Source: Rhodanobacter sp. B04 (lineage in GTDB: Bacteria; Pseudomonadota; Gammaproteobacteria; Xanthomonadales; Rhodanobacteraceae). From it: a stretch of DNA of 64,000 bases. The stretch lies in NCBI RefSeq assembly GCF_002001125.1, contig NZ_MUNV01000007.1:124001-188000 (forward strand), in the 5' to 3' direction. The notes beneath the pieces are model-generated. The model did not search any database and was not told the origin of the DNA. It was given only the letters and a program-made list of their open reading frames with translations. Positions 50,486 to 57,940 of the stretch are shown piece after piece. Position 1 is the stretch's first letter, and each line of letters begins with the position of its first letter. The translations under genes were made by a program, and so were the position numbers.

Positions 50486-51601
50486 ATGGCATTGCCCGAG
50501 ACGGCCAGCGCCGACTGGATCGACAACCGCGACGCACTGCAGGCATGGCTCGCCGCGGTGCCGGCGGACGCCGCCGTCGCACTCGACACCGAGTTCATGC
50601 GCCGGAACACGTTCTACCCGCAACTGGCACTGCTGCAGCTTGGCTGGAACGGACGGCATGCGCTGATCGATCCGCTGGCATTCGACATCGGCGACGCATT
50701 GCAGCCACTGCTGGGCGCCGGCCCGGCGGTCACCGTGATGCACAGCGCCAGCGAAGACCTGGAAACCCTCGCCCCCTTGCTGCCCGACGGCCCCCACATC
50801 CTGTTCGATACCCAGATCGCCGCGGCCTTCGTCGGCATGGGCCTGGGCATCAGCTATCGCGCGCTGGTCGCCGAACTTGCCGGCGCCGAACTGGACAAGG
50901 GCGAGACCCGCTCGGACTGGATGCAGCGCCCGCTCACCGCCTCGCAATGCAGCTACGCCGCGCTGGACGTGGTGTACCTGAAAACCATCCACGAGCAGTT
51001 GGTCGAGCGCCTGCGGCAGCGTGGGCGCAGCGCCTGGCATGCGGAGGACTGCGAGCGGCTGAAACGCCGCGCCAGCCACCGCGACGGCGACCCGCAGCCG
51101 CAGCGGGCCATGCGCGGCGCGGCCGACTGGCCGGCTGCGCGACAAGCCATGCTGCGCCGCCTGCTGTCATGGCGCGATCGCAGCGCACGCCGCCTCGATG
51201 TGCCGCGGCCCTGGCTGATCGACGACACCCTGGCACTGAGCCTGGCGCAACAACCACCGGCTTCCCTGAGTGAACTCGAACAGCGCGGCCGCGGCCAGCG
51301 TGCGCTGCGTTCGGCACAACGCAGCGAGCTGTTCGCCCTGCTCGCCGAAGCGGTCAGTGCCGATGAAATCGACACCACCGCGCGGATCCCCGGCCATCCG
51401 CAGGGCGAGGCGAAGAAGGCGCTCACCGAAATGAAGCAGGTAGTCGACAGTCTCGCCGGCGAACTGGATCTGCCGCCGGGCCTGCTGTGTCCACGCAAGG
51501 CACTGGAGGAATACGTGGTCACCGCCGAATGGCCTGATCTGCTCGAAGGCTGGCGCCACGACGTGCTGCACGACCGCCTCGGCGCCCTGCTGCCCGGCTA
51601 G
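50486..51601 (+). CDS. rnd: Ribonuclease D
   Basis: 371 residues from ATG 50486 (CAAAGGAA upstream). DEDDy exonuclease domain with ALDTEFMRR, HSASEDLETL and CSYAALDVVYL, then two HRDC domains (WRDRSARRLDVPRPWLIDD and SPEGEAK-like C-terminal stretch). It trims 3' ends of tRNA precursors; a tRNA gene lies 55 bases downstream. Confidence 0.95.
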   Translation: MALPETASADWIDNRDALQAWLAAVPADAAVALDTEFMRRNTFYPQLALLQLGWNGRHALIDPLAFDIGDALQPLLGAGPAVTVMHSASEDLETLAPLLPDGPHILFDTQIAAAFVGMGLGISYRALVAELAGAELDKGETRSDWMQRPLTASQCSYAALDVVYLKTIHEQLVERLRQRGRSAWHAEDCERLKRRASHRDGDPQPQRAMRGAADWPAARQAMLRRLLSWRDRSARRLDVPRPWLIDDTLALSLAQQPPASLSELEQRGRGQRALRSAQRSELFALLAEAVSADEIDTTARIPGHPQGEAKKALTEMKQVVDSLAGELDLPPGLLCPRKALEEYVVTAEWPDLLEGWRHDVLHDRLGALLPG

Positions 51602-51656
51602 CCCGCACAGGTCTTGGCGAACCCCTTCGCACGCTGCTAAGATCCCCCGCTTCCGT

Positions 51657-51732
51657 GGGGCGGTAGCTCAGCTGGGAGAGCGCCACGTTCGCATCGTGGA
51701 GGTCGTGGGTTCGATCCCCATCCGCTCCACCA
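51657..51732 (+). tRNA. tRNA-Ala(CGC)
   Basis: 76 nt with encoded CCA. Acceptor GGGGCGG/CCGCTCC, D-arm GCTCAGCTGGGAGAGC, anticodon stem CCACG/CGTGG with loop TTCGCAT giving CGC, and T-arm GTGGGTTCGATCCCCAT. Confidence 0.95.
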
Positions 51733-52099
51733 CGGAATGTTTCACCAGTGTCACGCAATACCCCGGAAACCGCGCTACGGCGCGGTTTTTCTTTGGGCGG
51801 ACGTAACACAAGGCTCATCCGGACTGCATCATCACGCAACGCGTGACAATCCGCCTGACGCAGGCTGATGTTCCGTCTGCGCGCTTTGACTTATCGCGAG
51901 AAGCCTTCCACTGCGAAGGAATCGCCATTGCCGCCCACATCCCGCGGATCTGCGAGAACCAGTCCGCTGGATCCGGTATGCGTCCGGTTGTTGGCCGGAC
52001 CCAGCACGGATAAGCTCCCGTTGAATCAGGGCGTTGTGTCGGAACTCCCGAATGTGACCACGGATGTATAGCCGGACCCTTGGGTCCGTTTATTAGGTA
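51733..52099. other. Intergenic region between tRNA-Ala and the gene cassette
   Basis: 367 bases. Holds the tRNA terminator (51767-51790) and, just before the cassette, a 7-bp hairpin CGGACCC/GGGTCCG (52073-52088). No supported gene; a 115-codon minus-strand frame here has no homology or ribosome-binding site. The final stretch would be where an integron attI or a previous attC lies, but I could not identify the other half. Confidence 0.45.
51767..51790 (+). terminator. Terminator after tRNA-Ala
   Basis: ACCGCGC/GCGCGGT stem, TACG loop and TTTTTCTTT tail. Confidence 0.85.
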
Positions 52100-52111
52100 G
52101 TTAGGCATCAC

Positions 52112-52507
52112 ATGAAGCTTCAGATTCCCCCGATGACCCCATGGAAAGATGTGCTGGTCCATTTGGCGATCTGGGCGATCTTGTTGTCAGCTCCGTCAAT
52201 CGTCTACTCGTTCTTTCCAAAACCCGACTTCGATGCCGCGTTGCGGAGTAAGTATCCGCATCAAATTGCGCTAGTCATGGGTGGCGGGGACTCGTCCAGC
52301 GGCAACACAACGTATGCGCGTCGATCCTATCTGCTTGTCCCGTCCGCGCCTCAACTACCGGAAGTCGTGCAAATTACTCAGGTAGATTCCGAGCGTCCAA
52401 AGGTAGTTGTGCAAAACAATTTATTCCTGATATCGCTAGTAATTTTCATCGGGCTCAGTGTTTACTATTTTCGTAAACGGTGGCGCACTCAGCAGAGTGA
52501 TGCGTAA
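52112..52507 (+). CDS. Cassette-encoded membrane protein of unknown function
   Basis: 131 residues with two membrane helices (about 14-34 and 102-120), a soluble region between them with no recognised motif, and a basic C-terminal tail. The start ATG is six bases inside the cassette and the TAA stop lies within the attC R'' core site, as is usual for cassette genes. Its codon use is less GC-rich than its neighbours. Likely a two-pass inner-membrane protein; function unknown. Confidence 0.7.
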   Translation: MKLQIPPMTPWKDVLVHLAIWAILLSAPSIVYSFFPKPDFDAALRSKYPHQIALVMGGGDSSSGNTTYARRSYLLVPSAPQLPEVVQITQVDSERPKVVVQNNLFLISLVIFIGLSVYYFRKRWRTQQSDA

Positions 52508-52558
52508 CATTTCGTTCAAGGCGGACGGCTACGCCGCCGCTTAACTCCAGCGTCAGGC
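52502..52558 (+). repeat. attC recombination site (59-base element)
   Basis: R'' GCGTAAC, then TTCGTTCAAG (L''-type), a GC stem GGCGG...CCGCC, CTTAACTCC (L'-type) and R' GTCAGGC. The TTCGTTCAAG...GCTTAACTC pattern is that of Xanthomonas and Pseudomonas attC sites; R' has C for T at its third position (consensus GTTRRRY). Confidence 0.8.
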
Positions 52559-52571
52559 GCCAACAAATCCC

Positions 52572-52972
52572 ATGTCATCTCACGGCATCGTCAGACTGGA
52601 GAGTCCGTATCCATTCGCTGATACCGTGCAGCGGCTGCTCGCCGCCTTCGCCGAGAAAAGCATCAAGGTCTTCGCAACCATTGATCAGCAAGCAGAGGCT
52701 CGGCCGTCGGTTTGGCGATGCCTGCGACCACGCTGATCGTCTTCGGCAATCCGAAGGCGGGCACACCGCTCATGCTCGCCAATCCGCAAGTGGGCGTCGA
52801 TCTGCCGCTGAAGGTACTGGTGTGCGAGCCTGAGCCAGGCCAGGTCGCGGTGTTCTTTACCGCCGCGTCGGAGCTTGTCGAACGGCATTCCCTTTCGCCT
52901 GAATTGGCCGCCGGCCTGGTTCCGGCTGAGCGCCTGATTGCAGCTGTCATCGGAAAGAGCGTCGGCGCCTGA
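52572..52972 (+). pseudogene. DUF302-family protein, frameshifted
   Basis: From ATG 52572 the frame reads SSHGIVRLESPYPFADTVQR and KSIKVFATIDQQAEAR, the DUF302 N-terminus, but after Arg-44 one base is missing near 52704 and the frame soon stops. The remaining domain continues in another frame from about 52706: VGLAMPATTLIVFGNPKAGT, PLKVLVCEPEPGQV, SLSPELAAGL, to the stop at 52972. An intact gene would be about 134 residues. DUF302 proteins are small soluble proteins of unknown function. It begins 14 bases after the attC. Confidence 0.85.
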
Positions 52973-52998
52973 CCAGCAGGCAAGTGAACAACCGAGCG

Positions 52999-53283
52999 CT
53001 ACACCCTGACGAACCAAGGTATCGCCATCAGCGCAACCCCGATGGAGATCAACAGGAAAGTGCCGGACACGAAATACGGAAACGTCATCAGCGCCAGCCC
53101 GCATACCAGCGGAACGATCGCCCGTTGCTTTTTGCCGTACACGAAGAAGCCGAGCCCGATCGACCCGAACAGTACGCCCCAGAGTAGTGTCGCTGTGCTC
53201 AAGACAAGCTGACCGGCTTTGGCTTGGATGGCAGGATCGTACACCAACGCCGGACTGGTGGACTCGAGTGCATATGTCGGCAC
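52999..53283 (-). CDS. Small conserved membrane protein
   Basis: 94 residues with three hydrophobic segments (about 27-50, 55-73 and 73-92): LSTATLLWGVLFGSIGLGFF, then YGKKQRAIVPLVCGLALMTFPYFV. The family is widespread in proteobacteria and sometimes labelled amino acid transport protein, without experimental basis. It converges with the DUF302 pseudogene and is divergent from the S9 peptidase. Confidence 0.75.
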   Translation of the reverse strand: MPTYALESTSPALVYDPAIQAKAGQLVLSTATLLWGVLFGSIGLGFFVYGKKQRAIVPLVCGLALMTFPYFVSGTFLLISIGVALMAIPWFVRV

Positions 53284-53417
53284 GCACTTCTCCAGAAGCC
53301 GGAGAACGTGCCAATCTCTGCGCCGGGAGTCTGTTTACGGATATCCACCTTCTGTACTGCCTGATGGCATGGACGACATGCCGTCAGGCAGATCGCGCAT
53401 TCAAGTCGGGAGTTTTC

Positions 53418-57292: not shown

Positions 57293-57940
57293 TCAATGAC
57301 CGCAGGCAATCGCATTGCCGCTGGGATCGGTGCAGCTTCCCGTATGCGTCACACCCTGGCCCTTGGTGTAGCTGGTCTGCCCGGTATAGGTGTCGCCGCT
57401 GGCATTGGTGATGGTGCTGTCGTGCGTGGCGGTGCCGTTCGACGCCGTGGTGCTTCCCTCATAGCTGCCGCGCGCACCGCTGGCCGTGGTCTCGCTGCTG
57501 GCGTTCCAGCTGCCGCTGGCATTGCGCGCGTAGTTGCCGCTGCTGTTGTAACTGCCGTCGGAAGCGCTGGTGCCCGATTGCTGGTAGCTGCCCTGGGCCG
57601 AGCCGTCGGTGTTGCGCGTATAGCTGTTGTGGCCGCTGAAGCTGCCACCGTTGGCACCGGTGACCTGAGTGCCGCCCTGATGGCTCACGCTGCCATCCGG
57701 GTTCACCGAGGTATACGCGCCGTGGGCCGCCGTACCGTTCGGGCCGGATGCGCGGGTACCGCGAAAGTGGGTCAGGCCACCCTGGCCATTGACGACCGTG
57801 CCACCGATGTGGCCGACCTGCTGGCCATTGGCCTGGAGGCGGGAACCGTGGACGCGGGCCTGGGCCGGATGGGTCGCGCCGAGTGCGATGGCGCCGACGA
57901 TGGCCAGTGAGGCAAGACGGGCATGGGAAGACACGGTCAT
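57293..57940 (-). CDS. Secreted Gly/Ser/Thr/Asn-rich repetitive protein
   Basis: 215 residues from ATG 57940: a signal peptide (cleavage near HPAQA), then a low-complexity body rich in Gly, Ser, Thr and Asn with short repeats of GSY plus a few small residues, in alternating beta-type pattern. It ends in GSCTDPSGNAIACGH with two cysteines. It resembles surface or matrix proteins, but I do not recognise a family. It is divergent from the two-component system, with a 211-base shared upstream region. Confidence 0.75.
   Translation of the reverse strand: MTVSSHARLASLAIVGAIALGATHPAQARVHGSRLQANGQQVGHIGGTVVNGQGGLTHFRGTRASGPNGTAAHGAYTSVNPDGSVSHQGGTQVTGANGGSFSGHNSYTRNTDGSAQGSYQQSGTSASDGSYNSSGNYARNASGSWNASSETTASGARGSYEGSTTASNGTATHDSTITNASGDTYTGQTSYTKGQGVTHTGSCTDPSGNAIACGH

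Follow-up and report, generated by a model that had tools for sequence, protein, structure and literature searches.

Beside a tRNA-Ala gene in the 64-kb stretch of Rhodanobacter sp. B04 DNA analysed here (the window, which belongs to contig C25 of G000, a genome of 3.8 Mb) lies an attI site with no integrase gene next to it. We think it quite probable that this site is an orphan platform kept by vertical descent, that it now holds one gene cassette and a decayed second one, and that it has been filled in trans. The features of the locus are as follows.

51657-51732, plus strand: tRNA-Ala(CGC) gene (ARAGORN; Rfam), the left neighbour and a hotspot for integron parts in the genus.
51844-51969, plus strand: left arm of the orphan attI unit, common to genome G045 and in part to G017:C8, and unlike the leader of intI-linked sites.
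51970-52107, plus strand: orphan attI of type B, about 138 bp, ending in the core GTAG^TTAGGC; homologous to the attI beside intI-B.
52068-52093, no strand: inverted repeat GGACCC..GGGTCC just left of the attI core, seen in the sequence.
52101-52552, plus strand: integron gene cassette (TTAGGC ... attC ... G), from the sequence, the attC model and relatives elsewhere.
52112-52507, plus strand: cassette gene, a translated 131-aa open reading frame with two predicted helices and its stop inside R''.
52501-52560, minus strand (bottom strand modelled): attC recombination site, from a covariance model (71.3 bits, E 7.5e-19).
52553-52973, plus strand: probable second cassette, a frameshifted DUF302 gene (Pfam DUF302, E 4.5e-14) with no attC after it.

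That 52101-52552 is a real integron gene cassette is clear from its ends and from its relatives. The left core GTTAGGC occupies 52100-52106 of the window sequence and R'' (GCGTAAC) 52502-52508, with the TAA stop of the single gene inside it at 52505-52507; R', at 52552-52558, reads GTCAGGC, that is, with GTC instead of GTT. The coordinates given in a preliminary description of the locus are right, and so is its placing of the stop in R''. For the attC we used a covariance model, because folding of the bottom strand alone is uninformative (z -1.05, not decisive). The model (R2) was built from an alignment (A3) of 22 other attC sites of the same genome, the window site being left out, and its best match in the window is the cassette's own site, the next best scoring 13.4 bits. 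The attC is genuine, as had been claimed, and the genome-wide search that the preliminary description recommended recovers it among 58 attC sites at E<=0.001, 28 of them on C22, 10 on C4 and 20 across seven other contigs. A chance match was considered and rejected on the covariance score, and also because the background is low, with 0.49% of strand positions followed by an attC in the next 1.5 kb.

The unit has R''/R' cores and a structured bottom strand at its attC, and units with the same ends are present in other arrays. It is 85-87% identical to a cassette in the middle of an array of Rhodanobacter sp. L36 (G050:C9) that has normal GTTAG cores on both sides, the G050 cassettes being 100% identical to the L36 record NZ_LMUV01000003.1, and a further relative lies on a MAG contig (L079 / G055); relatives occur in 3 of 45 congeneric genomes, G000 itself included. 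The cassette is AT-richer than its surroundings, as first described, with a GC of 0.518 against 0.654 for the window, and only 0.16% of 1270 sliding 452-bp segments are as low. Its product matches no family in Pfam (best E only 0.077), NCBIfam or PADLOC, so that the label of an unrecognised protein stands; the two helices attributed to it are predicted, as two long helices, at low confidence only (mean pLDDT 55.1). Judged from a dN/dS of 0.19-0.25 against its relatives, purifying selection acts on the gene.

Is the cassette solitary, as was first thought? The tRNA-Ala(CGC) gene near which it was said to stand is there, but the cassette is not quite alone, because the frameshifted DUF302 gene that comes next resembles a second cassette without an attC. 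This gene starts directly at the core (TCAGGC...) on the right of the window attC, and is 98.6% identical to a gene that directly follows the last attC in G045; in G001 a DUF302 homologue comes after a degenerate attC. The window copy lacks one base relative to that of G045 and has therefore lost its frame. From these comparisons the DUF302 unit is a probable second cassette that has no attC. The same junction does not bear out the suggestion that the altered R' locked the first cassette in place: what follows the G, six bases long, is part of the DUF302 unit, the corresponding junction in G045 reads GTCAGGT, and GTC is found in R' of 5 of the 170 attC sites that could be parsed (199 examined, 29 unparsed).

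On the left, the cassette joins an attI that is recognised by homology to intI-adjoining sites, with its core at the first cassette. Against the attI beside a full intI in G015:C19 the identity is 84.6% over 142 bp (E 5.9e-40), with the cores aligned, and against the intI-adjoining attI of G050:C4 it is 77.6%. Positions 51955-52108 resemble loci throughout the genus, and our attI-B model (R1), which has the window copy among its training sequences, matches 51973-52109 with 121.1 bits. Sixteen attI-B copies can be aligned from the inverted repeat to GTAG^TTAGG. Conservation among the 13 without intI is highest in the core block, where the mean majority identity is 0.935 (columns 126-138), versus 0.78 in the middle. 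Related GGACCC/GGGTCC inverted repeats lie at the left end of the site (51970-52010) and before the core (52068-52093), and are kept in most copies. In front of three internal attI units, one in L141 (G050:C6) and two in L107, stands a 45-bp sequence (TTTCGACCCAAAGCGGAC...), with similar letters before several other orphan sites; it is possibly a left-end signal of the attI unit. A promoter scan of 51720-52620 found no sigma-70-like site.

These results bear on a reading in which a single cassette was inserted at a secondary (attG) site in ordinary chromosomal DNA, which the preliminary description had entertained. One attC only and no intI nearby are what such an event would leave, but the left junction coincides with the end of a 138-bp sequence that is homologous to intI-linked attI and present at many loci, and not with DNA unlike attI or attC; the secondary-site reading is thus unsupported. 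Comparison with related genomes, as advised at the outset, gives one that lacks the whole insert, G013. Its locus is an empty site, without attI, cassette or DUF302 gene, and the mere 60 bp or so between its tRNA and the next conserved block likewise speaks against insertion into ordinary DNA, an explanation that we find hardly credible. In attG insertion, Loot and colleagues are said to have reported in 2024, the integrase acts outside its own attI, at sites that are neither attI nor attC. Such insertion resembles what we propose in that an integrase acts away from its own attI, and differs in that the window site is a close attI homologue.

Several observations concern the tRNA neighbourhood. 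The same tRNA-Ala(CGC) recurs in G015:C3 (L096, 7749-12379), there with a full intI-A and an array that faces it, and this tRNA locus therefore received integron parts independently. In G017:C8 (L092, 4831-4917) the 3' end and terminator region of tRNA-Ala are copied inside a cassette-array contig, possibly as an island end or a duplication. ARAGORN places a second tRNA-Ala (GGC, 94 nt) at 57365-57458 of the window, without support from Rfam at the gathering score. Among the 20 plasmid matches listed, most are to the tRNA and two cover the DUF302 stretch.

Where, then, is the integrase? A search of the 2 kb to the left of the window attI gives no intI trace with an E better than 0.1, and 51601-53400 contains none either; the locus is not a complete integron, in which intI adjoins attI. 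The original statement that no integrase is present is right for the locus but wrong for the genome. A check for intI elsewhere, also proposed in the preliminary description, finds two full genes in G000, at C4 and C22, the only two over the family cut-off, with open frames of 333 and 385 aa and no stops. The intI-B that lies beside a type-B attI is about 51% identical to both of these integrases, and the subtype of the window attI therefore lacks its own integrase in G000.

The window locus is one of several of its kind in the genome. Our attI-A model (R3) was made from 16 intI-linked sites, all of other genomes. At E<=1 it matches G000 at 7 places, each of them the start of an array and two with intI; these are the complete integrons on C4 and C22 and the array starts on C6, C24 (two), C26 and C29, two of the matches being weak on their own score (C29, 17.7 bits; C24b, 15.7 bits). 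The window array on C25 starts with the attI-B found by R1, and that on C11 with a decayed attI copy recognised by BLAST and by eye. All 7 integrase-less arrays with an assembled left end start at an attI-like site, two array pieces at the ends of C30 having been left out as their left end is off the contig, and no intI trace is found in the 2 kb left of any of the seven. In five attI-A arrays similarity to intI-linked leaders extends 39 to 181 bp left of the attI end, C24b gives no match to these leaders, and in the complete integrons intI begins 216 to 228 bp from the attI end.

What has happened at the site since it lost, or never had, a neighbouring integrase? In G045, a sister species, the order is rnd, tRNA-Ala, a 222-bp spacer, attI (91.5% identical), three cassettes, DUF302 and peptidase, and none of the three cassettes resembles that of the window, the only matches being attC repeats. 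An attI without intI is thus present in both genomes with different cassettes, from which it follows that the attI was most likely in place before G000 and G045 diverged, the cassettes having changed later. The preliminary description had raised the possibility that the window cassette is the last one of a decayed integron. An attI lacking intI is indeed there, but the junction is shared with G045, whose cassettes all differ, and the window cassette is not necessarily a remnant. The cassette that leads the G045 array also comes first after an orphan attI at another locus of another species, C19:165170 of G015. The two cassettes are identical at 378 of 380 positions and the attI parts at 106 of 132, the outer flanks are unrelated, and the similarity starts at the G^TT cut and stops after the G of attC. 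The direct explanation of this alignment would be that one cassette was inserted into two diverged attI sites, neither of which lies beside intI.

The left side of the cassettes is about 86% identical to G045 and the right side about 98%, a sudden change, and homologous recombination has therefore also acted at the locus. One might think that the sharp shift at the cassette block reflects nothing else, the block having been swapped between strains by ordinary homologous recombination with no integrase action at the site. We consider this very unlikely: in loci whose flanks are unrelated, the breakpoints coincide exactly with G^TT and with the G of attC, the pattern is repeated in 12 orthologous groups, and the swap would still call for a donor that carried another cassette at this orphan site.

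Across the 45 congeneric genomes, orphan attI sites outnumber intI-linked ones. The attI-B model (the window being in its training set) has 51 matches in 21 of the genomes: four with a full intI within 1.5 kb, two with an N-terminal remnant and 45 with none, two of the latter having less than 400 bp of contig upstream. An attC lies within 1.5 kb downstream of 33 of the 51, the other 18 having none above threshold; of the 22 matches scoring at least 68 bits, 20 have a downstream attC (one weak) and two have a full intI. The attI-A model has 107 matches in 36 of the 45 genomes, with 30 lying within 1.5 kb of intI, two at contig edges and 75 candidate orphans. Among the 62 candidates that have at least 1 kb of contig upstream and 700 bp downstream, 49, from 26 genomes, combine no intI trace with a downstream attC above 25 bits; no attC above threshold follows 12 of the 63 with enough downstream contig. 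Genomes assembled as a single contig also have orphans (three each in G041 and G024, one in G057), so contig breaks are not the cause.

Left-flank comparison covered 97 sites: the 75 attI-A candidates, three further ones of the window's own genome and 19 hand-chosen attI-B orphans. Of these, 49 form 12 orthologous groups of 2 to 9 genomes each, with left-flank identities of 72 to 98%. In none of the 67 testable cross-genome pairs of orthologues (those with at least 600 bp on the right) do the partners have over 100 bp in common within the 800 bp that adjoin attI on the right, a count that takes insertions and deletions together. As a separate observation, an orphan attI beside tRNA-Leu(GAG) is common to G004 and G017 (L103 and L109); in G004 its core is mutated (GTAAGG) and no attC accompanies it.

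Could these sites, and the window locus among them, simply be relics of complete integrons, in which intI was deleted in place, the cassette remained, and no recombination has occurred since? The homology of the window attI to intI-linked sites and the loss of both attC and frame by the DUF302 unit are in keeping with this, and intI remnants survive beside a few attI sites (G017:C29, G046:C20 and three attI-A sites), so that some orphans did arise by decay of complete integrons. As an account of the window locus, we nevertheless regard the relic as unlikely: the orthologous G045 site has an intI-free junction yet carries three other cassettes, no orthologous pair of the 67 has its first cassette in common, an intI trace is found at only 3 of the 75 attI-A candidates, and a nearly identical cassette occurs at two unrelated orphan attI sites.

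A further question is whether the attI unit itself travels, within a cassette that carries it, so that site and cassette arrived together. Units of attI do lie inside arrays (three in G050:C4; also in G017:C8 and G052:C16), and Delta-attI cassettes are described in PMC12901181 as recombining in class 1 integrons. But the attI and its left flank are common to the window and G045, the cassettes differ, and in G045 no cassette boundary (GTT core or attC) is present at the left end of the attI unit. We hold this account to be rather improbable. The three attI-B copies of G050:C4 (L107: 5315-5464, 6852-6987 and 10241-10376) comprise one beside intI and two internal, from which it is plain that attI units can lie inside arrays; in G052:C16 (L099 / L193) one array has an orphan attI of each type, A and B, about 1.4 kb apart and pointing the same way.

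How would a vertically kept orphan platform be filled? In established integron biology, IntI binds attC of a circular cassette as a folded bottom strand and recombines it with attI at G^TT. At the window locus, an attI platform without intI would have been inherited vertically beside tRNA-Ala. An integron integrase made elsewhere in the cell (G000 has two, of the other subtype) would act in trans, recombining circular cassettes at their attC with the window attI. The DNA left of the core may be kept because it is useful for recombination, and perhaps for expression of the first gene. A conserved place, a changed cargo and no integrase in cis are the expected look of a platform fed in trans, and the genus-wide pattern suggests that the orphan sites are served by a recombinase whose gene lies elsewhere in the cell.

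How does such a platform compare with known systems? The complete sedentary chromosomal integrons on C4 and C22 of G000 have the same attI, attC, cassette organisation and orientation; what differs is that intI is missing at the window locus. The locus shares with CALINs (clusters of attC sites without an integrase) the attC-bounded cassettes and the absence of intI from the neighbourhood, and differs in its recognisable attI anchor and its one attC. By the IntegronFinder default, which needs at least two attC sites and no intI, it is not a CALIN, having one attC, though it fits the older one-attC definition. Xanthomonas is a group related to Rhodanobacter. Text in PMC12444791 places Xanthomonas CALINs at conserved loci, in contrast to attG insertion, and says that CALINs can be mobilised in trans. 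These integrase-free arrays at conserved chromosomal positions, other than ilvD, resemble those described here; the difference is that the relevant passages of PMC12444791 mention no attI, whereas G000 has one at each assessable array. Partial attI sites can recombine as cassette ends according to PMC12901181, and the Delta-attI cassettes of mobile integrons treated there likewise have attI copies that lie away from intI and recombine, but those copies are attI-derived ends of resistance cassettes, and the Rhodanobacter units sit at fixed chromosomal places. Our searches of open-licence papers turned up no account of integrase-free platforms that are anchored by attI and conserved across species.

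Opinions differ on how integrase-less cassette clusters arise, whether as degraded integrons or as new insertions at non-classical sites. IntegronFinder names and counts CALINs, reporting them as proposed degraded integrons, and leaves attI outside class 1 undetected, according to PMC9024848. The integrase-less clusters of Rhodanobacter are here tied to attI sites that stay put while the cassettes change. Should other lineages have a standing network of the kind considered below, many CALINs would have been put in the wrong class, their attI being overlooked outside class 1. A simple improvement would be to search lineage-specific attI models at the left ends of CALINs. Feeding in trans becomes directly testable, and the genus offers natural replicates. 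Are the integrase-free arrays, then, a standing network rather than dying integrons, made up of dozens of species-spanning orphan attI sites without intI that continually lose and regain cassettes through one or two integrases acting in trans? We would put the chances of this wider proposition at about even. If it is true, one integrase serves many chromosomal capture sites.
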